Assembly (NCBI GenBank): GCA_902782145.1
Contig: CACZLZ010000002.1
Location: 1 to 64,000, forward strand
Length of the DNA: 64,000 nt
Source: an uncultured Aeromonadales bacterium
GTDB taxonomy: Bacteria; Pseudomonadota; Gammaproteobacteria; Enterobacterales; Succinivibrionaceae
Direction: 5' to 3'
The position numbers and the translations under genes were made by a program. Positions 5,665 to 46,134 of the stretch are shown here, one piece after another (the first letter of the stretch is position 1; every line of letters begins with the position of its first letter). The notes under the pieces were generated by a model. That model was given only the letters and a program-made list of their open reading frames with translations, was not told the DNA's origin and searched no databases.

Positions 5665-8316
5665 TCAGCTGCCCCGGATCGGTGCCGCCGGCTTCAGGGC
5701 CCGGGAGATTTTTTCATACAGATCCGGCGCCAGATCCGGCAGGGCGGCAAGTTTCTCCAGTTCCAGGCGCATCAGTTCCCCCTTCCCGCCATGCAGGCGC
5801 CTGAACTGCAGCATCGGATCCACCAGCACAGAGGCAATCTGGGGATTCCGGGCATTCAGACAGGCCACCGTCTCACCCAGGAACCGGTAGGTCTCCTGCC
5901 AGCGGACATGGAAGGCATAAGGGTTGGCCCGGGTAAAGACCCCCACCAGAGACCGGATCCGGTTGGGGTTGGTGAAGTCAAACACGTCACTCTTCATCAG
6001 TTCCCGCACATTGTCCAGGGTTTTCTCCGAGGCCACCTGGGCCTGCAGGGCCAGCCACTTGTCCATCACCGTCTTCCTTCCCTGCCAGCGCTCCCGGAAG
6101 CTCTTCAGCATGATCCCGCCCTCAGGCAGCTCCGCCAGCACCGCTGCCTGCATAGCCGCCATGGTGTCGGTCATGCAGGTGGATGCCTCAAACTGAGCCA
6201 GGGCGAGCTGCCCGGCCTGGGGACGGCCGCCCAGGCACAGGAACCGCAGGGCCAGAGCCGAAAGCTCCCGGGCATTCAGACCGGCCCTGCCGGGAAGGGA
6301 GGCCTGCCGCCGCCCTTCGTGATAAACCCGGAGCCAGATGGCTTCCAGTTCACCTGCCAGAAGGATCCACAGTTCCCGGCAGACGCGGTGGATCCGCTCC
6401 GCCTCCACCTCCGGGAAAGAAACTGCCAGCTGCTGCTCCGAGGGGATCTCCAGAAGCATTGCCAGATATTCACCGTCGTGATCAGTTGCCTCCAGGATCC
6501 GGCGGTAGCAGCGGATCAGCGCTTCTGGCGGCTCCGGTTTCCGGTCCACGTCCCCCAGGAGGGTCCGGGCAAAGTGATCCGCCAGAAGTTCATTCAGGGC
6601 CTCATAGCGGTTGAAGCCGTCCCGGCTGAAGGATGCGATCCGTTCCAGGAGGGCATACTCCGGCTTCCGCTCCAGGATCACAGGAGCAGAGAAGCCTGTC
6701 AGGTAGCTCACCGCCGGCCTGGAAGGGATATCCGTAAACTCCAGGGTGGCCTCAGGGGAATCCAGGAGAAACAGTCCGTCCGCCGCAACCCTGCCGTCTG
6801 CCAGGTGAGCCGGAGTGCCGTCCTCCAGCAGCAGCTCAAACTTCAGGGGGATGCACAGGGGAGGATAGGCGCTCCGATCCGTGTAATCATCGCTCCGGTG
6901 GCGCTGCCGGAGCCTGACGGTGAGAACCTTCCTGACAGGATCATACTCCTCCTCCGCCGCCACCAGGGGAGTTCCCGAGCAGGAGTACCAGCGGCGGAAC
7001 ACGCTGAGATCAATGCCACTGCCCGCAGTGTCCTGCATGGCGTCCACAAAGTCCTCACAGGTGGCACAGGATCCGTCAAACCTGGAAAGATAGCATGCCA
7101 GGCCCTCCCGGAAACACTGCCGACCAAGGATAACCTGGAGCATGCGCACCACCTCGGCCCCCTTTTCATACACCGTGGCAGAATAGAAGTTGTTCTGCTC
7201 AATGACCTTGTCCGGACGTACCGGATGGGCCATGGGACCGGCGTCCTCAGGATACTGCACAGTGCGCAGAGTCCTGACCTGGCGGATCCGTTCCGCTGCC
7301 GGTGAGCCCATGTCGGCAGAGAACTCCTGATCCCGGAACACCGTCAGCCCCTCCTTCAGGCTCAGCTGAAACCAGTCGCGGCAGGTGACCCGGTTGCCGG
7401 TCCAGTTGTGAAAATATTCATGGCCGATGACATTCTCGATGCTCCGGCAGTCCCCGTCCGTAGCCGTGTCCCGGTTTGCCAGCACATATTTGGAGTTGAA
7501 GATGTTCAGCCCCTTGTTCTCCATGGCCCCCATGTTGAAGAAGTCCACGGCCACCACCTGGAACAGATCCAGATCGCACTCCAGGCCGAAGCGGTCCTCA
7601 TCCCATTTCATGGCCCGCTTCAGGGAGGCCATGGCATGGCCGGCCAGATCCAGATCACCACGGTTCACGAAGAACTCCAGATCCACCTTCCGCCCCCCGG
7701 CGGTGACAAAGGTGTCGGCCAGCACATCAAAACGGCCGGCCACCAGAGCAAAGAGATAACTGGGTTTGGCAAAGGGATCCTTCCGCACCGCATAGTGCCG
7801 TCCGCCACCCAGATCACCCTGCTCCGCCCGGTTGCCATTGGACAGAAGATGGGGGAAGGCATCCCGATCAGCCTCCATCCGCACAGTGAAACGGGAAGAC
7901 ACATCCGGCCGGTCCAGGTAATAGGTGATCTTCCGGAAGCCCTCGGCCTCGCACTGGGTGCACAGGATCCCCTCGGACATGTAAAGCCCCTCATAGTCCG
8001 TGACCTTAGCCGGGGCAAGATAATTCACCACCCGGAGATCAAACTCGGCGGGAACATCCGGCAGCGTCATGCTCACGCTGTCCAGGATGTGCTCCGCTGG
8101 AGCACCGTTGATCTCCACGCTCTCCAGCTCCAGGCGCACGCCGTCCAGCACCAGAGGCCGGGTGTGACTGCCGTTACGCCGGATGTGAAGCACCGCCTCC
8201 ACCCGGGTGCGCTCCGGATCCAGGCTGAAGCAGAGAAAGGTGTCAGTGATAAGGTAGTCCGGAGCCCGGTAGTCCTTCCGGTATTTGGGCTGTCTTTCGT
8301 TTGCGCTGTTGTCCAT
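5665..8316 (-). CDS. pepN: Aminopeptidase N (M1 zinc metallopeptidase)
   Basis: Cytosolic zinc aminopeptidase that removes N-terminal residues from peptides during protein turnover. 883 residues, close to the 870 of E. coli. The substrate-binding GAMEN motif is at 263-267 and the zinc site HEYFHNWTGNR at 299-309, with the third ligand Glu at 322 (HExxH plus 18). The ERAP1/DUF3458-like C-terminal helical region is complete. Start ATG 8316 has GGAAG six bases upstream. Large plus-strand open frames across the gene are shadows produced by GC-rich codon use. Confidence 0.96.
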   Translation of the reverse strand: MDNSANERQPKYRKDYRAPDYLITDTFLCFSLDPERTRVEAVLHIRRNGSHTRPLVLDGVRLELESVEINGAPAEHILDSVSMTLPDVPAEFDLRVVNYLAPAKVTDYEGLYMSEGILCTQCEAEGFRKITYYLDRPDVSSRFTVRMEADRDAFPHLLSNGNRAEQGDLGGGRHYAVRKDPFAKPSYLFALVAGRFDVLADTFVTAGGRKVDLEFFVNRGDLDLAGHAMASLKRAMKWDEDRFGLECDLDLFQVVAVDFFNMGAMENKGLNIFNSKYVLANRDTATDGDCRSIENVIGHEYFHNWTGNRVTCRDWFQLSLKEGLTVFRDQEFSADMGSPAAERIRQVRTLRTVQYPEDAGPMAHPVRPDKVIEQNNFYSATVYEKGAEVVRMLQVILGRQCFREGLACYLSRFDGSCATCEDFVDAMQDTAGSGIDLSVFRRWYSCSGTPLVAAEEEYDPVRKVLTVRLRQRHRSDDYTDRSAYPPLCIPLKFELLLEDGTPAHLADGRVAADGLFLLDSPEATLEFTDIPSRPAVSYLTGFSAPVILERKPEYALLERIASFSRDGFNRYEALNELLADHFARTLLGDVDRKPEPPEALIRCYRRILEATDHDGEYLAMLLEIPSEQQLAVSFPEVEAERIHRVCRELWILLAGELEAIWLRVYHEGRRQASLPGRAGLNARELSALALRFLCLGGRPQAGQLALAQFEASTCMTDTMAAMQAAVLAELPEGGIMLKSFRERWQGRKTVMDKWLALQAQVASEKTLDNVRELMKSDVFDFTNPNRIRSLVGVFTRANPYAFHVRWQETYRFLGETVACLNARNPQIASVLVDPMLQFRRLHGGKGELMRLELEKLAALPDLAPDLYEKISRALKPAAPIRGS

Positions 8317-16363: not shown

Positions 16364-16625
16364 CATAAACATCACATCATAATTCATGCACTTGTGGACG
16401 TTCCAAAACAATCCACAAGCAACAAATCGAGCGAAAACCTGTCAGCAAGTAAACAACAGTGCTGGAGTAATTGACAGTCAGATTTAGAAATAAAACAAGA
16501 GAGTTATACTTTTGATTATCTGACAAAAAAAATCTGCAATTTAATGTCATCCCGCATAAGGCTAACATGATTCTGTAGAAATCTATGGTACCTTCGATCA
16601 AAAAAAACACACAGCAACATAAAAA
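16364..16625. other. Boundary between GC-rich backbone and AT-rich island
   Basis: Base composition falls sharply here. No gene is supported. The left-hand side belongs to the GH84 upstream region and the right-hand side to the end of the island transcript; no integrase, tRNA or attachment-site repeat was recognised. Confidence 0.5.
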
Positions 16626-17483
16626 CTACTTAAAAATTATAGCAACTGCTAAAAGCACAGTTATAAAACATAATAATTTAAACCACTTATTAAGGTTTTT
16701 GTAGTTCTTTTCAAGATTTTGTAATAACACTGTTTGTTCATCAAAACCATTTTTAACTTCTTTATCGAGTAGTTTAAGAATTGATTTGTCATCACTTAGT
16801 TTGTCTTCTGCAGCGCCAAGTTTCAAAATGTAACCATCAACCTGCTCGCCAATCTCTGTAAACTTGTCTGCAATTGTGGTTGCATCACTAGAGGTTTTTG
16901 AGATCTGCTCATTAAACTTATCAATTATAATTTTTAGTTTTGACAAATCACTTACAATACCTTTATTTAGCGTTAATAGTTGTTCGTTATAATCCTCCGC
17001 AATTCTTTTCACCAGAAGTCTGGAATCATTTTCTATTGCATCTGAAATACCCGACATTGTTTTTCTTGATAAAGCAAGTATAGAGTCAAACTTTTGTCCA
17101 ACTTCAACCAATAAATCTTTATTACCTGAATTTAAACTATTGAAAGATTCACTTAATTTACTGTTTGCTTCAGCTGTAAAATCATCAATTATAGCCTTAG
17201 TATCCGAGACAATTGCTTTTGATCTTGAATCTAACTCGTTAAGCAGACTTTTATGAAAAGAATCAGCTTCTTCAAAGATATTTCTATATTGTTCATCTGA
17301 GTTTATACAAAATTCTTTTAATTGAACTTTAATTTCTAAAAGTTCTTTACAATAGTTTTCTACTTGTTGCTGAAGTCTAGCATATGAATCTGTATTCTTT
17401 TGAACCATTTCATTAGCCGAAGCTATATTTTTGAGACTTTCTTCTAACTTTGTTAATGACTGAAAAATTTCATTCTGATTCAT
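16626..17483 (-). CDS. Coiled-coil protein with C-terminal membrane anchor
   Basis: 285 residues, nearly all predicted helix with heptad-like hydrophobic spacing, ending in one hydrophobic segment (WFKLLCFITVLLAVAIIF) and a Lys. This predicts a tail-anchored, rod-like protein facing the cytosol. It starts at ATG 17483, inside the last codons of the helicase reading frame (14-base overlap), with GGGGA upstream, so translation is probably coupled to the helicase. Composition is AT-rich like the helicase. I recognise no named family. Tight coupling suggests the two proteins act together, with the membrane anchor a possible effector or sensor. That role is inference. Confidence 0.75.
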   Translation of the reverse strand: MNQNEIFQSLTKLEESLKNIASANEMVQKNTDSYARLQQQVENYCKELLEIKVQLKEFCINSDEQYRNIFEEADSFHKSLLNELDSRSKAIVSDTKAIIDDFTAEANSKLSESFNSLNSGNKDLLVEVGQKFDSILALSRKTMSGISDAIENDSRLLVKRIAEDYNEQLLTLNKGIVSDLSKLKIIIDKFNEQISKTSSDATTIADKFTEIGEQVDGYILKLGAAEDKLSDDKSILKLLDKEVKNGFDEQTVLLQNLEKNYKNLNKWFKLLCFITVLLAVAIIFK

Positions 17484-17811
17484 AGTTATTTCCCCATTTA
17501 TCTAAAAACGAATATATTATATTATTAATTGACTCGACATGAATATAAGATTCAGCTACAAAGGAAAGTTTATGAAAAAGTAACATTTCTTGTTGAGATA
17601 TAATTTTTAAATTTTTAGGTCCCAGTTCATTTAAGAACCACTGTAAAATGCGTTTATTTTCATCTAGGCTATCTGTTTTTCCAAAAAGAGCAATAGCAGC
17701 ATCAATATAACTACTTTCAATTTCTTCCTGCTGATGTTTATTAAGTTGAGGATTGAGATAGAGAATACAAAATACATTAAGCAAATTCAAAGATGGGTTT
17801 GTATCGGTCAC
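17470..17811 (-). CDS. Helicase segment 3: C-terminal remnant
   Basis: The frame continues from segment 2 after TGA (17953-17955) with no ATG; a GTG at 17811 is the first start-like codon and lacks a Shine-Dalgarno. The whole stretch 17470-17952 encodes about 160 residues, including HLQGSIRLIRRAVTDTNPSLNLLNVFCIL. It reads as the natural C-terminus of the helicase rather than an independent gene. Its 3' end overlaps the coiled-coil gene. Confidence 0.6.
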   Translation of the reverse strand: MTDTNPSLNLLNVFCILYLNPQLNKHQQEEIESSYIDAAIALFGKTDSLDENKRILQWFLNELGPKNLKIISQQEMLLFHKLSFVAESYIHVESINNIIYSFLDKWGNNYESE

Positions 17812-17952
17812 CGCACGACGGATCAGCCGAATAGAGCCTTGTAAATGCTTTACATTATCATTTGGCGAACCATCTTGACATACTTTTTCATCAATAACAG
17901 CTAAATACTTTTTCAGTATCTCAAATGAACTAATAAGTCCATGATTTGTGTC

Positions 17953-19035
17953 TCAAGTCAAAGAATAATCCAACCCGCTTGGTGTTACATAAGTCTCACG
18001 GGAGAATTTTGAATTAAAATAATAATATAGATAATCTTTAAGGTATTCATTTGTTTTAAGCCAATCTTCGTTGGATATCCCAATCCTGCAGAATTCTTCC
18101 ATATCAGAGATTGCTTGTCGGCGCTTGTTTGCAATTTTAGTGTAGATAAAATCAGTTAAAAATCCCAGACATTTTTGAATTTCATTATCTCCCCTGAAGC
18201 TCTTAGCCCTTGAAACTTCTGATCTTGCTTTATCTTTATTGTAGTAACGCGATAAAAAGCACTCCAAATTATCGAAATATCCTCCATCTGGCAATTTACA
18301 GACAGTGAGATAAAATTTATTTAGAGTGTAATCCTGTGTAAAATCAGAGATCAGCCCTATACAATTCATTCTGTATATTGACTTAGACAATGCGTTTTTG
18401 AAGTTTTCAAATGTGATATGTCTCTCATTGTATTTATCAAGAAAAGTGTTTATATCCTTAAAATTACGAGCATCAGCAGAATAATTCAGGGTTAATCTAA
18501 CCGAATCGTTTGGATTAAGAAGTTTTATACAACTCATAATCCCTTTGAATTCTTTCGTCCAAGAGTTATAATTTTCTTTTTCAGTTGTTGCTATTATATC
18601 GAGAAATTCCAACATATAATACATAATAGTCTTTTCCTGGTGTTTCCCCGGAAAACTATTTTCATAAAAATACTTGTGTATGCTATAATCAACTGTCCCT
18701 GTGTTATTTAAACTACCTCCTCTTTCATGAAAATCACTGTAAAGGATAACTGCCAGTGCAAGTTTTCTGTCCCTTCCAGCTCGACCGGCTTCTTGTACAA
18801 ATGCTTCAGGTGATCCTGAATGGTTGATGTTGACTGTAAATCGGATATTAGATTTGTCTATACCCATGCCAAAGGCTTTGGTAGCCACCATAATACTGGT
18901 GCAATTATTAATGAAATCATCAGGATTGTTTTGTGAATTATTCCTGTCACTTCCCGTAAATGTACTTATCTTAGTACCAATAATTCTTGTTAGCCTAGAT
19001 GCAATACCAAGATCTTTTTTGTCATTTACACCCAT
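17953..19035 (-). CDS. Helicase segment 2: RecA2 domain and helical C-terminal part
   Basis: 360 residues from an ATG that overlaps the previous stop (TGATG). It supplies helicase motifs V and VI: MVATKAFGMGIDKSNIRFTV and EAFVQEAGRAGRDRK. The rest is a helical region with no clear RecQ zinc or HRDC domain. The residues before the ATG, in the same frame, continue helicase-like sequence, so the ATG is probably fortuitous. A separate polypeptide could only restore helicase activity by associating with segment 1. Confidence 0.75.
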   Translation of the reverse strand: MGVNDKKDLGIASRLTRIIGTKISTFTGSDRNNSQNNPDDFINNCTSIMVATKAFGMGIDKSNIRFTVNINHSGSPEAFVQEAGRAGRDRKLALAVILYSDFHERGGSLNNTGTVDYSIHKYFYENSFPGKHQEKTIMYYMLEFLDIIATTEKENYNSWTKEFKGIMSCIKLLNPNDSVRLTLNYSADARNFKDINTFLDKYNERHITFENFKNALSKSIYRMNCIGLISDFTQDYTLNKFYLTVCKLPDGGYFDNLECFLSRYYNKDKARSEVSRAKSFRGDNEIQKCLGFLTDFIYTKIANKRRQAISDMEEFCRIGISNEDWLKTNEYLKDYLYYYFNSKFSRETYVTPSGLDYSLT

Positions 19036-21761
19036 CAGTCCAGTGGTGTGTGGACAAATATTATTGCAGAATAATTATGATCTGGATCCTGATACCAAAG
19101 CTGTGGTAAATCAATATTGAGATTTGCTTTCTCGACAAATTTGACTAGTTCCTTATCTGTACAGTTTTCACGTTCCAAGAATTGTTTCTTTATTCTTTCA
19201 ATTGAACTTTCTTTTGATAGTTCTGTAAATGAGTTATAAAGTATTTCCTTGACGATAGTGCCCACATAATCAGCCTTTCTCTTGTATATATCCCATTTGT
19301 TCTCTGTCATACTAAAAGAGGGAATCTTAATTACTCGGTACTGAAGTTCTAATCGATTAGTATTTTCAAACCGAACAATTGAATCTGGTTCGAGGGGAAA
19401 TTTGTTGTTTACTGAAAGTTCACGCTCAACATCAATTAGAACATCAAATGACGCGGTAGCTGTAAGACCGAAAAGGCTTATACGTTCATCCTGCATTCCT
19501 TTTCTCGCAAGAGGTCGGACATACTCATAAAGATTTCTGCCCAAATGAAGATAAGTAAATCTAAAATCATGTCCCCACTCTGATACACAATGAACCTCAT
19601 CAATCACGCCATAACTAAAATAAACTCCTGCATGACCAATGTTTTTAAGACAGGAACGGAATTCATCAATGCATAGTCTTTCAGGAGTTACAAAAAAATA
19701 TAGAAATTCTGAATTTGCAAGACGGTCGCAAACTTCCTGCTTTTTATCTTTGGTCTGTGTGGAGTTGATGAAATTGCAACAGTCGATACCATATCTTATG
19801 AGTCCTTTGACCTGGTCCGACATTAGAGAAACAAGCGGATCAACTATCAGAGTCACTCCCGGCTGAAGCATAGCAGCCAACTGGTATGTTAGAGATTTTC
19901 CTCCTCCCGTGGGCAAAAGACCAATGACACTTTTTAAACGCAAGGCACGGTCTAAAATTGGTAACTGGCCTGGACGGAAGTCCCTTTTGCGAAAAAGAAG
20001 TTTAAGAAAGTATCTCAGATTGTCATGTAAACTCAGAGCATGTTTTTCTGACTTTGAAGCCGCAGTCTTATGTGATCGGAACATACTTAAGTATTCTATC
20101 CGCTCTCCCATGATCATTTTTCTGCAACCTTTAAATGAATATGAAGAGCGGATTATAAAATAACACTGGTTTGAGACTGAATACCGTGAAAAATCAGCCT
20201 TAATTGGATCACAGAAAGATGTAATGGCAATATCAAGGACAAGATCATAAACTGTTTTGCTGTTTTTGCTAAAACATTTTTCTTCATTTTTATAAACATC
20301 GGCACCAAAGTGAAATGCAGATTCAGAATAATTTGGTGAAACGATTTCAATCTTAATCTTGGGGAATCTTAGTTTTCGGTATTCCACTGACATCTCAGTC
20401 AGATTATCAAACATTTCCTCTAGATCTTTCATAGCTAGTACACAACAGGGAACATCGCGCTCCATGGCTAGAATACGCCACTCCTTTTTTAGCGCGAGTC
20501 TGTTATACAACATAGCCTGAATAACTGTTTTCTGTATTCTTGCTACACAAAGGCAGATCTTAGTCATTAGTTGCTTTTTATCGTAATTTGCGCAAAAACT
20601 ACTTAACGCATGATCTTCGAATTGAAGAAGAGGCTTTTTTAATTTTTTTTCTTGCAACACTTCGAAAAATACGTCATCTGGATCTTCACATTCCTTTGTG
20701 ATCTCTATTATGCTGGCAAAATTTCTTTCAAGGAAAGGACTTGACTTGGACGGCAGACCTCGGCAGACAATGTTGTTTAAAACAGCCAGTACAGGATGGG
20801 GCTCAGGACAGCATTCAGCCGCCATGTCGAATGGTGCGAGAACTTCAAAAGAACATGGATATGACAATCCACTAACATCCTTTAGTTGCTCAACCTTAAG
20901 AATATCAGGACAGTAGCCACAGTAAAATTGTACCGGAGGATAATATGGGTACCACTGTTTAATATCTTCTGATAGTTGACAGTCAGCCCTGAATCCCAAA
21001 ATTGAGCAGGTGTACGCATACTCATTTTCCAATTGTTTGAACTGGGGGGTATGGCATCTATTAAAAATTACCGAAGGAGACAGTTTGAAGTAATTACTGA
21101 AAGCCTCAATCCGTTTCTCACCAGCATTACAAGGACCCACACATAAAAAGTAATGACATACCTTTTTTGAAGTTATGTACCCTGCCAATTTTTTTAGATC
21201 AATGTCAGGCACATCCAAAACATTCGAAAACAGATGTACTGCAACAGGAAAATCCTCACTGATAACAGAACTGTCTATTTCTGGGCCGGAAGTTTTGTTG
21301 GTAACAGTAGGCAGGTAACACTCAATCGCCCTGATTTTGGTGTTTGAACCAAACATGGGAATTGAACCGATATACTGAACTGCTCGTATTAAGGCTAAAC
21401 CAGAAGGTTCAACTAAGGTTATACGGTTTGGTTTTGCAATTCGTGATGATAATAGATTCAGACGGTGAAGAAACTCAATTGTGGCCAGTCCCTGGCCACA
21501 TCCCCAGTCGTAAAGTTCGTAAGTGCTTGGCAGTTCATCAAATGGGAAACTATCGAGTGCAAATTGAATTTTTACACTGTGCATTATGCCATATGCTGCC
21601 ATGTAACAGTCCAAGGCCTCCTCACTCGATAGCGGAAACAGTCCATGACGAAGTTCTGGGTGGGACCAGGGATTATTTTTTAGCGATGGCGGTAATCTCT
21701 TCTGGGCCTGGGCAACAAGGTACTGAATTTGACTACTTACATTAACATCAGGGTAAGGCAT
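19035..21761 (-). CDS. Helicase segment 1: methyltransferase-like domain plus RecQ-type RecA1 domain
   Basis: 908 residues. Near residues 60-110 a Rossmann/methyltransferase-like motif is visible (YELYDWGCGQGLATIEFLHRL) with a later VEPSGLALIRAVQY. The middle is uncharacterised and Cys-rich. From about residue 595 a RecQ-like superfamily 2 helicase begins: RKRDFRPGQ, Walker A LLPTGGGKSLTYQL (about 616-629), VDPLVSLMSDQVKG, DEVHCVSEWGHDFR (about 721-734) and LFGLTATAS. The frame ends at motif IV (AIIFVHTP). Its TGA shares a base with the ATG of the next segment. AT-rich, unlike the backbone, which suggests horizontal transfer. Confidence 0.85.
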   Translation of the reverse strand: MPYPDVNVSSQIQYLVAQAQKRLPPSLKNNPWSHPELRHGLFPLSSEEALDCYMAAYGIMHSVKIQFALDSFPFDELPSTYELYDWGCGQGLATIEFLHRLNLLSSRIAKPNRITLVEPSGLALIRAVQYIGSIPMFGSNTKIRAIECYLPTVTNKTSGPEIDSSVISEDFPVAVHLFSNVLDVPDIDLKKLAGYITSKKVCHYFLCVGPCNAGEKRIEAFSNYFKLSPSVIFNRCHTPQFKQLENEYAYTCSILGFRADCQLSEDIKQWYPYYPPVQFYCGYCPDILKVEQLKDVSGLSYPCSFEVLAPFDMAAECCPEPHPVLAVLNNIVCRGLPSKSSPFLERNFASIIEITKECEDPDDVFFEVLQEKKLKKPLLQFEDHALSSFCANYDKKQLMTKICLCVARIQKTVIQAMLYNRLALKKEWRILAMERDVPCCVLAMKDLEEMFDNLTEMSVEYRKLRFPKIKIEIVSPNYSESAFHFGADVYKNEEKCFSKNSKTVYDLVLDIAITSFCDPIKADFSRYSVSNQCYFIIRSSYSFKGCRKMIMGERIEYLSMFRSHKTAASKSEKHALSLHDNLRYFLKLLFRKRDFRPGQLPILDRALRLKSVIGLLPTGGGKSLTYQLAAMLQPGVTLIVDPLVSLMSDQVKGLIRYGIDCCNFINSTQTKDKKQEVCDRLANSEFLYFFVTPERLCIDEFRSCLKNIGHAGVYFSYGVIDEVHCVSEWGHDFRFTYLHLGRNLYEYVRPLARKGMQDERISLFGLTATASFDVLIDVERELSVNNKFPLEPDSIVRFENTNRLELQYRVIKIPSFSMTENKWDIYKRKADYVGTIVKEILYNSFTELSKESSIERIKKQFLERENCTDKELVKFVEKANLNIDLPQLWYQDPDHNYSAIIFVHTPLD

Positions 21762-22011
21762 TGACAGCGTGTCCTTCTATGTGCCAGAAAGGGGTCAAGT
21801 AATTGTTGGTTTCTTTTGTTCTGATTGCCGTCAAGATAACGAATGGCATGAGGGATAATGAAATGCGAACCGAAATATCCCAATATCAGTGAATACGTAC
21901 ACCATCTCAGCAGTGCCAGGGCTCGACGTAAGCTGGCACCTGATCGTACAGCTCTTCAGCAAATCCACTGGCGATGTACACCCGTTTGAGTTCTTCGAGC
22001 GTTCCGTCAAC

Positions 22012-23595
22012 CTAGTACTTCCTTGTCTTCTGGCCGTAGTTAATCGTGGTTCCAGTGGTGATCTCTATGATGTCGGTAACGCTGTAAGCTTTTCCCGGGA
22101 TTGGCTTTTTCCTCTTGTCCTCAAAGGACCGTTCTTTGGCCAGCTGTGCCTTCAGTTCAGCCAGGATGCTCAGTGCCACGAAGGCCACAATGAAACGTCC
22201 TTCCATGGTATCTTGTCTGTGTGATCTGGCTGTATCCAGCTTAAAGCCCATCTTCCCAGACTTGAAGCACTTTTCGATATTGTCCCTTCTTCTGTAGATG
22301 TCGTATGCCTGGGCAGCGGTCATCTCCTTCAGAGACACGTTCGCAAAGAAGCCAAAATCCTTGGTATAGTCGTTTAGAACATCGTCATCCCGGACGAGAT
22401 CGCCCTTCAGATCGGGGCAATCCTTGTAGAACCGTGAGCGTTCGTCCTCCAGCAGTTTGCGCCTTTCCAGCCTTGAAGCAGTCTTCCAGCGGCTTTCGTA
22501 TTTGTTCAGCATATCGTTGAAGGCACCGCTCTCCAGAGTGTTCTTCACATCACTCCGGAACACATGCACCCAGACATCAAATTCCTGTCCGCGGTGTTTT
22601 ATCTTCACCTTGTCCGTATGGCCATGCACACGTGTTCCAGGGATGACTGAAGAGGCATCCCAGAAGTCTGCGTACTTATCCCTGACCTCTCTGATGTATT
22701 TGCGCTCAAGGCTTGCTGCGGCCATGAGGCATTTCTTCTGATGCAGCGAACACTGCTGCAGATTGTCCCTGGTTTCGTACCCACGGTCAAAGACAAACAG
22801 CAGATCATTTTTTCCGAAAAGTTCCTCTATCCGCTTTATGAGATCGACTATGGTGACGCAATCTGGTGTGTTGCCGCTGAACAACCGGTACATCAGTGGC
22901 ACCCCCGTCTCCTGCTCCACCAGCAGTGACAGGTGCATCATGGGCTCAATGATCCCATACTCTGAATTGGAGAACTTCGGGCAGTAGAAGTCACTTGCCT
23001 TGACGGGGATGGAAGTTGAGTCGTAGTTCACACAGGCCTGAGGATGAAGATGTTCGCACCGCAAGGCAAACAGTTTGCTGATGCTGACCTTGTCTTTCCC
23101 AAGATGACTGTAGAGTCTTGCCAGTTGCTCTTCATCGATATGTCCATGAAATGGCAGGGCAAAGACTTCTGAAAACGTGAAGAATCTGCGTGCCCCGTTG
23201 TCCAGATCCTGGATCCAGTGAATGGCCAGGGAAAGGATCTCCTGGGCCACAGTGCCGTCATAAACCTTCTTAAGATCTTCAACCATTCCGCAGTTTACCG
23301 CCGATCCGTAAAGGATAGGGACGGCACCAAGCATCCGCTGGAAAATCGCTCCCGATCCCTGCTCCTGTGCGGCCGGACTGACGTCAGTCTCCGGCGCCTC
23401 TTCACTGCCGGCTTCAGGGTGCTTTACCCGCACAAATCCGCGCTTGGTGTATTTGGATCGGTACTCCTGGCTGGTCATGAACTTGTCATCAATGACGACA
23501 CCAAGGAAGATTTTCTGATTGGCACTCCTCTTTTTCTCCGGATGATAAGTATAGACCCTGGTAAAGATCCTATAACCATTGGAGACAGAGAGCAA
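22012..23595 (-). CDS. IS1634-type DDE transposase, C-terminus cut by an amber codon
   Basis: 527 residues from a TTG at 23595; the frame is open further upstream but has no ATG, so the start is uncertain. Catalytic residues fit the IS4-superfamily pattern: Asp in VNYDSTSIPV, Asp in FVFDRGYETRD and Glu in YRRRDNIEKCFKSG. The frame stops at TAG (22012-22014), yet it continues in phase for 34 codons to TGA at 21907-21909 (VDGTLEELKRVYIASGF). The TAG therefore may be a mutation that trims the C-terminus. Terminal inverted repeats could not be identified. It separates the helicase locus from the AAA ATPase. Confidence 0.85.
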   Translation of the reverse strand: MLSVSNGYRIFTRVYTYHPEKKRSANQKIFLGVVIDDKFMTSQEYRSKYTKRGFVRVKHPEAGSEEAPETDVSPAAQEQGSGAIFQRMLGAVPILYGSAVNCGMVEDLKKVYDGTVAQEILSLAIHWIQDLDNGARRFFTFSEVFALPFHGHIDEEQLARLYSHLGKDKVSISKLFALRCEHLHPQACVNYDSTSIPVKASDFYCPKFSNSEYGIIEPMMHLSLLVEQETGVPLMYRLFSGNTPDCVTIVDLIKRIEELFGKNDLLFVFDRGYETRDNLQQCSLHQKKCLMAAASLERKYIREVRDKYADFWDASSVIPGTRVHGHTDKVKIKHRGQEFDVWVHVFRSDVKNTLESGAFNDMLNKYESRWKTASRLERRKLLEDERSRFYKDCPDLKGDLVRDDDVLNDYTKDFGFFANVSLKEMTAAQAYDIYRRRDNIEKCFKSGKMGFKLDTARSHRQDTMEGRFIVAFVALSILAELKAQLAKERSFEDKRKKPIPGKAYSVTDIIEITTGTTINYGQKTRKY

Positions 23596-23840
23596 CGGTT
23601 CAACAGACCATTCCTGGTTCCATACTGTGGCTAAAATGCGCCATTTTTCTTCTGTTCTTTGACCTTTCTTAGACGTCCATAAATAAAGGCAAAGACCTTA
23701 AATAAATCTCAATTTGTTTATATGGTGCGTCTTTTGAAGACAAATTAAAGGAGAAATTAAAGGCTTATAAAAAATTTATTTAGGAGATGAAGTAAGTTTG
23801 AAGATAGACCACCATGAAGAGGCGGAGGGTTACAGGAGTT
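23596..23840. other. AT-rich gap between transposase and AAA ATPase
   Basis: No gene supported. The upstream part of the transposase frame and one end of the insertion sequence probably lie here. If the ATPase at 23841-25178 once had a downstream partner, it is not recognisable. Confidence 0.4.
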
Positions 23841-25178
23841 TTAATCAAGAGTGTTAGGATCAGATCCTGTAACAATTTCTTCTATAATGTCAGTGAAGTC
23901 TATATCTTCAATGGCACCATACCTGCATGCGAAATAATTCTTCATATAATCGCTGGTATTGCGGACGCTTGCTCTGTCGTTCGCTCTGAAGTCAGACAAA
24001 GCATAGAGTGAACTTGACTTAGTCCTTTTGTCACGCTCTACAAATTTGATCTCATCCCTCCTTAACAGCTTGTTGTTGAGGTAAATGGGATTCTGGGTAT
24101 TGAAAATAAGCTGCGCTCCTTTCTTGTTTACCCTGGAGTTGTGAAATAAGGTTATCAGATTCATTGTTATCATAGGATGGAGTGATGTGTCAAATTCGTC
24201 CATCACAATAACTGCACCCCTTTTGAGTGCAGCGATAATTATAGGGATTATGGAAATAAACCTGATGGTTCCGGCGGATTCTATCGCTGATACATCCATA
24301 CCAAATAGTTTGTCATCATTTCTTCTGATCACAGAGATAAGTTTGGCAAACTTGCTGTCATTATCGGTATCATAGGCAAAACTGGTGCCAATTATTCCTG
24401 CTTCCTTTACAATGCGGTTGATATATTTTTTAATTAAATCCAACTCAGAGCAGATCTTATTTCCAGAATGATAAGACAGCGTTATGGGTTGATTGAAAAT
24501 TATGAACTTCTCCTTAAACCATGAAGTAATTTCCCTTACAATTTTTTTGCTACAGAAGGAGTTGAAGTCTGTTGTGAGGAGCAGACAGTCATGGACGAGA
24601 TTATTACTCATAAGCCTACGTGTGTTCTCTTCAGTGCTGATTTCATAGCCAACATTCAGCCATTCTGAAACCGTGGTCAATCGTAGTTCAGCAACCTGGT
24701 CCCTGTTCCGGTCAAAAATCAGATCATCATTGACATAAAGCAGTTCCCGGCTGACATACCGTTCTGCAGTCTCATCATGAAAGAGGCCGAGCATCATGGC
24801 CAGAACATAACGGTACTTAAACCCATTGTTAGTGAAGGTCACATCAAATTCAACTGGCGCAGTTTCATCACTGAAGGCAAAGGGGCATGAATTCATGCAC
24901 CTGTTTACACGATCTCCGCTGATTCCTCCGGCAGCATCCTGAATATTTCCCCACATTACGATCTGACGGAGGCATGACATGGCATTCACAACGGAGGTTT
25001 TGCCAGCGGCATTAGGACCGTAAATGACTGATGCTGCAATGGCTTCTTCATCAAGGTTAGGCGCATTCTCCTTCAAAATTGAGTCTTTCAGTTCATTCAT
25101 GCGTTTTTCCGGCTTCATGCTGAAGTCAAAACCATCTCTGAAGGACTTGAAGTTTTTGCAGGAAAATTTTAGCAGCAT
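23841..25178 (-). CDS. AAA family (OLD/RloA-like) ATPase
   Basis: 445 residues. An SMC-like N-terminus MLLKFSCKNFKSFRD is followed by Walker A GPNAAGKT (residues 54-61), a signature-like ESAGTIRF, Walker B AVIVMDEFDTSLHP and a switch-region TQNP. This matches the AAA_15/AAA_21 ATPases found in OLD-, RloA- and AbiL-type defence loci. Such proteins commonly work with a Toprim or RloB partner, but none is visible next to it; an insertion sequence lies directly downstream. Composition is moderately AT-rich. A defence role is inference from family and island context. Confidence 0.85.
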   Translation of the reverse strand: MLLKFSCKNFKSFRDGFDFSMKPEKRMNELKDSILKENAPNLDEEAIAASVIYGPNAAGKTSVVNAMSCLRQIVMWGNIQDAAGGISGDRVNRCMNSCPFAFSDETAPVEFDVTFTNNGFKYRYVLAMMLGLFHDETAERYVSRELLYVNDDLIFDRNRDQVAELRLTTVSEWLNVGYEISTEENTRRLMSNNLVHDCLLLTTDFNSFCSKKIVREITSWFKEKFIIFNQPITLSYHSGNKICSELDLIKKYINRIVKEAGIIGTSFAYDTDNDSKFAKLISVIRRNDDKLFGMDVSAIESAGTIRFISIIPIIIAALKRGAVIVMDEFDTSLHPMITMNLITLFHNSRVNKKGAQLIFNTQNPIYLNNKLLRRDEIKFVERDKRTKSSSLYALSDFRANDRASVRNTSDYMKNYFACRYGAIEDIDFTDIIEEIVTGSDPNTLD

Positions 25179-25618
25179 AACGACACATCTATTCCAAGTT
25201 AATGCTTAACCTGCTGATCATCCTTCTTTTGCAGGTGATGATCAAGTGATCGGCACCACTAAATGACATTTAGTTCTGGTTTTAGATTTGTCCGCAAAAT
25301 GATTTCTAGAAAACATCCGACGGCAATATAAATCTGATATGATCAAAAACATGCTTAAGATTTTACCTGCAGTTTCAGCAGCGTTCAGTCAAAGCGGAAC
25401 AAAGCAGATCTGTCAAAACTGGGATATTCATTACAATTCTACCATCATTTTATTGCTTTTTTTTCAGAAGATAGGATTATAAACAAAAATTTCTCAGAAT
25501 CAATTTTAAAAACTCAAAAGTTATGATTTATTCCAAAATATCCGGTTTAATATAATTCTCTCTACCCAACAACACAAAACCCCAACCAACATTATTCAAA
25601 TTTTTCACCAGCACCAAG
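25179..25618. other. AT-rich intergenic region with divergent promoters
   Basis: No gene supported. It must hold the promoters of the leftward ATPase and of the rightward orphan gene. The AT content is the highest in the window. Confidence 0.4.
25551..25556 (+). promoter_or_regulatory. Candidate -10 element for the gene at 25619
   Basis: TATAAT, 62 bases upstream of the ATG at 25619. The expected -35 position carries only a weak TTATTC match. Confidence 0.35.
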
Positions 25619-25978
25619 ATGAACACAGACTTTCTTAAAAATTATTCCAAAGCCGAATTAGACTGTTATTGTAGTTGTGCACTTTTCAACTTGTTTGAAG
25701 CAACCTGCTGTGCAGAAGATGAAAAAGAATATTATCAAATGATGTCTGAGGTTACATCAGACTTAAAGGGTTATTTAAATGTCTTATCGGTCATGCTTAG
25801 ATATATGGACGTATCATGCAGCGGACTCCAAGATAAAACTGAATTCGATATGAAAAACGAAGAATTCTTTGAGTCGATCCTTGACAGACTCGGAGAGCGA
25901 AATTCTACGGAGCGCGAGAAAGTTAGTCCTGAATTCCGGGAACAAGCATATAAATGTGATTTGTCAAAATTTGGCTGA
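25619..25978 (+). CDS. Small acidic Cys-containing protein, unknown function
   Basis: 119 residues, acidic and predicted helical, with cysteines in DCYCSCALF, ATCCAEDE and VSCSG near the N-terminal half. No signal peptide, membrane segment or known motif. Codon use is AT-rich like the neighbouring island genes. A candidate -10 box lies 60 bases upstream and a good plus-strand terminator lies 250 bases downstream. I do not recognise the family. Confidence 0.55.
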   Translation: MNTDFLKNYSKAELDCYCSCALFNLFEATCCAEDEKEYYQMMSEVTSDLKGYLNVLSVMLRYMDVSCSGLQDKTEFDMKNEEFFESILDRLGERNSTEREKVSPEFREQAYKCDLSKFG

Positions 25979-26227
25979 TTAGTAAGCCAATCAGGTTACA
26001 ACCCAAGTTTCACTTACCGTTGCTGAGTCAAGTTAACCTGCATGGCAATCGTCTTAGGGTTCGTCCCCATCCGGACTTTGCAACGATCTGCCCCTGGAGA
26101 AAGCCCTGGACGGCCAGCCATAGCACGAAACCGGATCCTGGCCCATGTCCTTTGCGAGAAGGTGTCCACTGAAGGCAGGGACACCGTGCTACGCCACATA
26201 CAGTTTCCTGCTCATGAGGCAGACTTC

Positions 26228-44886: not shown

Positions 44887-46134
44887 TCACATCTTAGAAA
44901 CGATGTTTGCGAAGTCAAGGTTTAGCATCGGAATGGATCCGTACTTTCCATCAATATAACCCTTCTCGAAGTTCTCTTCCTTCCTTACATTTCTAATTTC
45001 AGCTAGAGAATAAAGATCTGTGGATCTATCGTTATTTCTAAGTTCAGTAAACCAAATCTGGTCCCGTCTAAAAAGATCAAGGTTCAACAATCCAGTGTCA
45101 TGTGTAGAAAACAGCAATTGTGAAAATTTATCTGATTTCGTATCCATAAAGAGTTTCACCAGACCGTAAACAAGGGATTCATGTAAACTCGATTCTAGTT
45201 CATCACAAATCAGTACTTTTCCGTTCACCATAATATCCACAAGGGGACTTAGCATTGCAAATAATTTCTTTATTCCTGACGACTCCTCGTGAAACAGGTC
45301 TGTTTCAAAAGACTTATATTCCACCTTTGCGGTAACTGCATCAACATTCTTTTTAAGTAGTATCGCCTTAAACTCATCTGAAAGGAACGGCGGAAGTTCA
45401 GCAGATTCCAATTTTTTCTTATCAATTGAAACTTTAATATCCTTGATCCCAGTTCCAAGTCCATTGAGAAACGCAATTGCAGAAGCTTTTATTTTGGGAT
45501 TAAGATTCATCTGATAAAGAGAATATTTCATCCAATTATCCTGGATCCCTGGACCGTAGATGACAAGTTCATCACTGAAAAACCGAAACGCTTCAGCGAC
45601 CTCCTGAACAGAACTGAAATTTGCAGCACAGGAAAGTAATAACCTATTTGGCTTTAGCACATCTTTGCATGAGGAAAATTTTCCTCTAAACTTGCTACCT
45701 TGGCTAAAGGTCTCACCAGATCTCTCAAAAATTTTGGTTTGCCTGTTATTGGGGAAATAATATAAATACTCTGACGACACTAACATGTTTCTTAATGTTA
45801 GTCCGTAAGCATATCTGATCCCGCCTATGACAAACTGAATTTTATAAGCAGTCTCCTTATCAAATCCCTCGAGTTTGTGAGGAACCTGAAGAATACCCTG
45901 TCCCGGCTGATGATTGATGCTGTTAATCACCAGCTGTTTCACAAAGGACAGAGCATCGATAAAATTACTTTTACCCGATCCATTTGCTCCATAGATAACT
46001 GCCGCTTTCAGCACTCTTATGCCATCCGCTTCATAAATTCTGTCCTCAAGCGTGCTGTCTGGTCCTGCCAGAGTTGAAAACAAAACTTTCCCCCGAATGG
46101 ACTTGTGGTTCGAGCATATGAATTCAAGCAACAT
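44887..46134 (-). CDS. AAA family (OLD/RloA-like) ATPase, second copy
   Basis: 415 residues; ATG 46134 has GGGGGAG eight bases upstream. N-terminus MLLEFICSNHKSIRG, Walker A GANGSGKS (residues 49-56), signature-like ESSGIKKLFAMLSP, Walker B VLICDELESSLHESL and switch STHDTGLL. Same overall family as the ATPase at 23841-25178 but clearly divergent, so not a recent duplicate. Family members act in phage-defence or anti-plasmid loci, often with a nuclease partner; here only a 42-codon stub follows. AT-rich relative to the backbone. Confidence 0.85.
   Translation of the reverse strand: MLLEFICSNHKSIRGKVLFSTLAGPDSTLEDRIYEADGIRVLKAAVIYGANGSGKSNFIDALSFVKQLVINSINHQPGQGILQVPHKLEGFDKETAYKIQFVIGGIRYAYGLTLRNMLVSSEYLYYFPNNRQTKIFERSGETFSQGSKFRGKFSSCKDVLKPNRLLLSCAANFSSVQEVAEAFRFFSDELVIYGPGIQDNWMKYSLYQMNLNPKIKASAIAFLNGLGTGIKDIKVSIDKKKLESAELPPFLSDEFKAILLKKNVDAVTAKVEYKSFETDLFHEESSGIKKLFAMLSPLVDIMVNGKVLICDELESSLHESLVYGLVKLFMDTKSDKFSQLLFSTHDTGLLNLDLFRRDQIWFTELRNNDRSTDLYSLAEIRNVRKEENFEKGYIDGKYGSIPMLNLDFANIVSKM

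Follow-up and report, generated by a model that had tools for sequence, protein, structure and literature searches.

A decayed copy of a mobile RecQ-type helicase and tail-anchored coiled-coil gene pair, probably a defence module

The locus considered here raises the question of whether a large helicase gene, together with the gene for a membrane-anchored coiled-coil protein that follows it, forms a defence system, and whether the copy at hand could still be working. It occupies positions 16626-21761 on the minus strand of a stretch of 64,000 nucleotides (the window) from an uncultured Aeromonadales bacterium (contig CACZLZ010000002.1, positions 1 to 64,000, of GCA_902782145.1, a draft assembly of 93 contigs), and comprises a multidomain RecQ-type helicase and then the coiled-coil gene. 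An earlier reading of the same letters, referred to below as the original prediction, had proposed a two-component anti-phage locus. Our answer, to which we assign a probability of roughly 0.6, is that the locus is what remains of a mobile module, a decayed and probably non-functional copy; the module combines a RecQ-type helicase with a tail-anchored coiled-coil protein and probably defends against phages or plasmids. The pairing, the domain make-up, the patchy spread, the rule for the upstream gene and the lesions of the window copy were all computed in this study.

Conserved pairing of the helicase with a coiled-coil gene

The query for a scan of public genomes was an alignment covering the helicase core plus C-terminal domain, made without regard to the neighbouring gene; the scan yielded 80 loci. 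A profile of the C-terminal domain separated 31 loci scoring above 79 bits, taken here as the family, from a remainder at or below 43 bits. A coiled-coil gene lies at -29 to +15 bp from the helicase stop in 30 of these 31 loci, and 29 of the 30 encode a protein with a single predicted membrane helix close to, or at, its C-terminal end; the sole exception, L033, retains frameshifted remains of a coiled-coil gene downstream. Such a neighbour was found at none of 25 control loci, which are housekeeping-type RecQ genes with a downstream frame found (30/31 versus 0/25, Fisher p about 5e-15). A survey with the C-terminal domain only detected the family in 22 of 396 Bacteroidota genomes, and the coiled-coil gene stood downstream at all 21 readable survey loci, with a tail anchor in 18; these 21 include one gammaproteobacterium and 3 loci already present in the first sets. 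The same pairing is seen in plasmid copies (Haliscomenobacter, Salinibacter, Rhodothermus and Klebsiella) and in viral-contig copies. These surveys confirm that the pairing is real, conserved and beyond chance. Homologues mostly devoid of a coiled-coil neighbour, the outcome that the original prediction had named as contrary to it, are not what was found.

Members of the family occur in at least Bacteroidota, Bacillota, Pseudomonadota, Rhodothermota/Balneolota, Actinomycetota and Cryosericota, and the near-absolute pairing across at least six phyla marks the coiled-coil protein as a near-obligate partner and the second defining gene of the family. The gene pair is thus widespread in bacteria and apparently unnamed: as the original prediction had supposed, no named system for it was found in open-access papers and a few preprints, and automatic annotation currently labels the helicase 'RecQ' or 'DpdF' and its partner 'hypothetical'. 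Across both surveys the junctions range from -29 to +26 bp, and because they are short and often overlapping, translational coupling of the two genes is suggested. The coil itself varies in length from 84 to more than 380 amino acids. The tail anchor, in contrast, is preserved throughout, and so are the first ~35 residues inside individual clades, as would be expected for a tether with a docking site.

Two further observations concern relatives of the pair. L023, which appears to have lost its coiled-coil gene, encodes another tail-anchored coiled-coil protein of 301 amino acids (7315-8220, plus strand), situated in an island beside two genes that look DUF262/GmrSD-like by eye. On the viral contig L168 (2639-9913), an RVT_1 reverse transcriptase and a 241-amino-acid gene stand directly upstream of the helicase/coiled-coil pair.

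Domain make-up, upstream genes and the state of the window copy

The motor is of the RecQ type, with motifs I-VI and a profile match to E. coli RecQ (1oyw) at 1e-90. L021, an intact orthologue whose source genome belongs to the window's genus, scores 228.7 bits on TIGR00614 (cut-off 219.8), the window motor being divided between two frames; the housekeeping RecQ equivalog TIGR01389 (cut-off 640 bits) gives 259 bits for L021 and 160 and 73 bits for the window pieces. In the tree, the family forms a clade of its own, separate from RecQ (support 100/100). Most members carry a DUF559-like PD-(D/E)XK nuclease motif (IEIDGxxH ... D..R) ahead of the motor, which is absent from the window copy, L021, L028-L031, L034 and L035. 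The N-terminus of the window clade is a class I S-adenosylmethionine (SAM) methyltransferase fold, for which a fold search returned 206 PDB matches at E <= 0.001, mostly methyltransferases; its motif I, DWGCGQG, is unchanged across the clade alignment save for DWACGQG in L031, and three clade members (L032, L033 and L036) retain the nuclease alongside it. The structure of the family-specific C-terminal domain was predicted with a local confidence score (pLDDT) of 81. The Cys-rich middle noted in the original prediction was rejected as a zinc-binding element, its cysteines being unconserved in the clade. From this comparison, the constant core of the module appears to be a helicase, in which the C-terminal domain is specific to the family and the N-terminal enzyme can be exchanged, plus the downstream coiled-coil protein.

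The methyltransferase fold is accompanied by a further gene. All 11 intact methyltransferase-bearing helicases examined outside the window, among them L028 from Bacteroides An322, are preceded at -31 to +43 bp by a gene that encodes DUF1848 in 9 cases and an AlkB-type dioxygenase in 2 (L034 and L035), as against none of the 24 other family members (p about 2e-9), a comparison in which the 11 loci do not amount to 11 independent events because they share ancestry. The AlkB identity derives from ALKBH3/ALKBH2 matches (E about 1e-38), and DUF1848, for which no solved structural relative was found, has an invariant Cx3Cx2C as in radical-SAM enzymes. A search of 393 genomes from the order to which Bacteroides belongs, with the methyltransferase domain only, found it in other proteins as well, with DUF1848 adjoining about half of those loci. 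One frame of 898 amino acids (L256, 697-3393, minus strand) fuses DUF1848 with the methyltransferase domain, which may be taken as supporting a joint function, and in L249 (G1189:C203) an AlkB-type dioxygenase, DUF1848 and a methyltransferase-bearing gene stand in one row. Since DUF1848 and AlkB pair with the domain outside the helicase too, the methyltransferase and the repair-type enzyme constitute a module of their own. In the window clade the operon therefore really has three genes, the first of them DUF1848 or AlkB, so that the two-component locus originally proposed stands as a conserved pair and falls short of the third gene that the clade normally has and the window lacks. The rule that no methyltransferase domain is present unless an AlkB or DUF1848 gene precedes it is testable and provides a first functional lead for DUF1848. 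Six further loci (L254, L255, L257, L259, L260 and L261) encode a different methyltransferase-domain protein of ~500 amino acids with no DUF1848; most have an uncharacterised gene directly upstream, and this is possibly another uncharacterised system.

The window copy departs from this arrangement in several places. The features of the module and of the insertion sequence (IS) next to it are as follows.

16626-17483, minus strand: tail-anchored coiled-coil protein, 285 amino acids, open reading frame (ORF) intact; the N-terminal segment matches other family members
16632-16688, minus strand: the only predicted membrane helix, at the C-terminus (residues 266-284; 19-residue hydropathy 2.22)
17470-17952, minus strand: rest of the helicase C-terminus, in the same frame as piece 2; homology resumes past the TGA toward 17470
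17953-17955, minus strand: in-frame TGA within the helicase C-terminal domain (SLT*DTN versus SLRDDTN in L021 and L024)
17953-19035, minus strand: helicase piece 2, 360 amino acids, with motifs V/VI (KAFGMGID, QEAGRAGRDR) and the start of the family-specific C-terminal domain
19008-19056, minus strand: frameshift region in the helicase, where tblastn with the intact orthologues L021 and L024 changes frame
19035-21761, minus strand: helicase piece 1, 908 amino acids, with the methyltransferase-fold domain, an RGxP linker and the first half of the RecQ motor
21878-23668, minus strand: IS1634-family element (NCBIfam NF033559), transposase ORF 22012-23595

Piece 1 contains the methyltransferase-fold domain in residues 1 to about 330 (DWGCGQG at 85-91), the RGxP motif at 334-337, and the motor motifs PTGGGKS (Walker A, about 617-623), DEVHC (721-725) and SEWGHDFR (727-734); a domain scan identified DEAD and Helicase_C domains in the window helicase. 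The frame opened at 21761 ends at a stop at 19035-19037, directly past helicase motif IV. L021 is a single open frame of 1468 amino acids, and L024, whose start is lost at a contig end, is open across both lesion sites. Having two separate lesions, a frameshift and a nonsense codon, the window helicase is most likely a pseudogene. The very large superfamily 2 (SF2) helicase of the original prediction accordingly keeps its RecQ-type motor and methyltransferase fold and loses its standing as a single gene.

The rest of what had been read from the letters at this point holds. Exactly 14 bases of the final helicase ORF (17470-17811) also belong to the coiled-coil gene, and the coiled-coil protein has the character of a rod, with no proline in its 285 residues and a strong 3.5-residue hydrophobic periodicity of 2.32 (null mean 0.80; 0 of 200 shuffles as high), ahead of its one C-terminal helix. 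Between the end of the IS1634-family element and the helicase start lie 117 bp, at the place where intact clade members have DUF1848 or AlkB. Remains of DUF1848 were searched for in the window and none were found, nor was an AlkB-like frame seen there; the methyltransferase domain is still in an open frame with no upstream partner gene. The window copy is thus a relic, and the interest lies in the family, above all in the methyltransferase clade with its AlkB/DUF1848 rule.

Probable function, alternatives and known systems

The family is distributed patchily. It is present in 2 of 369 Gammaproteobacteria, and the L020 sequence, which represents an enterobacterial branch with DprA upstream, in 7 of 5426 E. 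coli; complete modules of this branch (DprA-RecQ-coiled coil), found in sequenced E. coli genomes and plasmids, for example in strains PSS-10 and ET846, make it directly testable in laboratory strains. L021, although gammaproteobacterial, is nested within Bacteroidota copies in the tree, which indicates horizontal transfer. In E. coli, copies directly adjoin type I restriction genes, one setting being an island with an integrase and another a plasmid, and the flanks of other copies include genes of type I restriction-modification, Zorya (ZorB/ZorD), BREX (BrxC) and Lamassu (LmuB). Because a patchy, transferred, plasmid-borne and defence-neighboured distribution is the usual profile of defence genes, we favour a membrane-tethered helicase that surveys DNA, and the most likely role of the module is protection of its bacterial host from phages or other foreign DNA.

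We infer the membrane tethering of the helicase, its DNA targets, the enzymatic activities and the defence function along the following lines. The coiled-coil rod, with its C-terminal helix fixed in the inner membrane, would hold the helicase at the membrane, where it may engage incoming or unusual DNA and then unwind it. The attached enzyme would act on the exposed strands, as a PD-(D/E)XK nuclease in most relatives or as a methyltransferase-fold domain in the window clade. In that clade the upstream DUF1848 or AlkB-type enzyme would take part in this chemistry, most simply by reversing or preventing base modification of host nucleic acid. A tether is preferred over a pore because the coil varies in length while the anchor is constant. 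If the module is indeed a defence system, it adds a RecQ-based, membrane-tethered kind with exchangeable enzymes.

Several observations weigh against this account. Four coil genes (L054, L151, L154 and L170) have no clear membrane helix, and the tail anchor is predicted from hydropathy alone. The nearest folds of the methyltransferase domain are small-molecule and other methyltransferases, with no DNA-methyltransferase catalytic signature recognised in it, and the fold search gave no significant relative of the C-terminal domain among solved structures. Although specific defence systems were commoner in PADLOC scans of the family's flanks than in those of the RecQ controls, the comparison is kept qualitative because many control matches are housekeeping paralogues. 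The family is rare on phages and viral contigs, its conflict with phages is something we infer, and no published activity of the pair was found in the open-access literature. Both window lesions could in principle be assembly errors. The defence proposal of the original prediction is therefore only partly supported: the island, plasmid and defence-gene contexts fit it, but the window copy is broken, the clade has a three-gene operon, most relatives carry a nuclease and not a methyltransferase, and a defence activity was not found in print.

Some of the same evidence can be read differently. In an abortive variant, the helicase would be a sensor and the coiled-coil membrane protein an effector that kills the cell or arrests its growth by disturbing the inner membrane upon detection of phage DNA. 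Membrane effectors are common in defence, and the downstream position and near-obligate pairing would suit a sensor-effector pair equally well, and the coil's resemblance to ZorA, confined to the ZorA tails, counts on the same side; its single membrane helix, however, the lack of any pore or charged motif seen to be conserved, and its wide range of lengths are more tether-like, while most helicases already bring a nuclease of their own. We regard this variant as rather unlikely. For the methyltransferase clade, a somewhat better case, still a doubtful one, can be made for modification and antidote, in which the helicase-borne domain would set a harmful methyl-type mark on nucleic acid that the upstream DUF1848 or AlkB enzyme would remove from the DNA or RNA of the host, a toxin with its antidote, both activities being putative. 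The strict link between domain and upstream gene, the ALKBH3/ALKBH2 relationship, the radical-SAM-like cysteines and the standalone, fused and three-in-a-row arrangements all argue for it. The absence of a solved DUF1848 relative and the shared ancestry of the 11 loci reduce its weight, as does the window copy, in which the methyltransferase frame is open and has no partner, a state expected to poison the cell had the domain been harmful by itself. Its extension to the whole operon, with a membrane-tethered RecQ helicase methyl-marking nucleic acid and AlkB or DUF1848 protecting the host, would amount to defence by damage and selective repair; as far as we found, the open-access literature holds no description of such a defence, and we consider it unlikely.

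A role outside defence, with the membrane-held helicase serving DNA repair, recombination, plasmid maintenance or DNA uptake, would agree with a motor closest to ordinary RecQ, with the plasmid-borne copies and with the position of DprA, a transformation protein, upstream in the enterobacterial branch. It is poorly compatible with the very patchy distribution, the horizontal spread, the defence-gene neighbours and the swapped accessory enzymes, and two related kinds of pair, DprA-RecQ-PRTase and DprA-PRTase, have been described as toxin-antitoxin or defence systems (PMC4670107, PMC9122126), so we hold it to be distinctly improbable. Least credible of all is that the window helicase is broken only in the assembly and intact in the organism: the draft state of the genome speaks for it, but two separate lesions in one gene, together with an IS where the upstream partner is expected, speak against it.

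The preferred reading, a tethered helicase module, was also compared with known systems. PsyrTA/RqlHI shares the RecQ-type motor and the mobile two-gene arrangement and, in the L020 branch only, an upstream DprA and N-terminal HAD and PRTase-like stretches (the latter by eye). In contrast, the window clade has neither PRTase nor DprA, and its partner is the downstream tail-anchored coiled coil. Membership was rejected, since a Pfam scan of the window pieces and 33 members gave no PRTase family and no DprA-like gene adjoins the window copy or occurs in the methyltransferase clade. A PsyrTA-like pair was observed in the same genus (L025, 8318-11592, G004:C138), with a RecQ-PRTase of 728 amino acids (by eye) and a DprA-like protein of 354; that genome also has the intact helicase/coiled-coil operon L021.

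The RecQ-like helicase DpdF of the 7-deazaguanine system Dpd is a second candidate, and many PADLOC models named DpdF match the family; one of them, PDLC02868, spans the L020/L049 branch nearly full length, so that automatic annotation with it may call Dpd where none exists. DpdF was rejected: on the NCBIfam model (cut-off 550 bits) the window pieces score 63.6 and 46.6 bits and L021 127.8, while ordinary RecQ reaches up to about 230 bits, above the family, and no dpdA-C modification genes adjoin the window locus. As for the logic of Zorya and Kiwa invoked in the original prediction, its general form, a DNA enzyme with a membrane-anchored partner, is shared by the pair, but the locus belongs to neither. 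The coil has weak matches to ZorA tails, and ZorA models match that part only; a single C-terminal helix takes the place of the MotA/ExbB-type multi-helix domain, ZorB is missing and the helicase is of a different family. Kiwa is a two-gene system of a membrane protein and a DNA-associated partner (KwaA/KwaB), to which the pair bears an outward likeness; the membrane protein of the pair, however, has one C-terminal helix and a long coil, and PADLOC gave no match to the KwaA/KwaB models. Finally, the upstream gene of the methyltransferase clade matches RTasDUF1848 (DRT-associated DUF1848, PADLOC PDLC03815), whereas the operons of this clade contain no reverse transcriptase, which was seen upstream only in the viral contig L168.

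Island setting and neighbouring genes

The AT-rich island described in the original prediction is borne out by the GC profile, GC being 30-50% over ~16.4-26 kb of the window and ~60% on either side.

16480-26000, no strand assigned: AT-rich island with the module, the IS and the AAA_21 ATPase

The genes around the locus are the coiled-coil gene, the IS, the ATPase and metabolic genes. The transposase mentioned earlier is real and of the IS1634 family; inverted repeats of the element were looked for and not recovered, and its ends were therefore placed by means of partial copies found at other sites in the genome. The AAA/OLD-like ATPase close by is confirmed as well, an intact AAA_21 protein (23841-25178, minus strand) with AbiLi as its top PADLOC model (E 9e-69), but it is not part of the helicase/coiled-coil module; the interval separating it from the IS just downstream holds no recognisable partner gene. 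There is no tRNA in the window, and the expected empty site was not found in the relatives' genomes compared, which match the window in an acyltransferase-PurT-GH84-like order on one flank and diverge on the other. Elsewhere in the window, a second ATPase (44887-46134, minus strand), with an OLD/AAA_21-like N-terminus by eye, lies in another AT-rich patch at 45-46 kb, and a lower-GC stretch at the edge (1-2600) begins with an ORF that looks transposase-like by eye (1-1407), next to which a protein resembling Fic, again by eye, is encoded (1610-2599).

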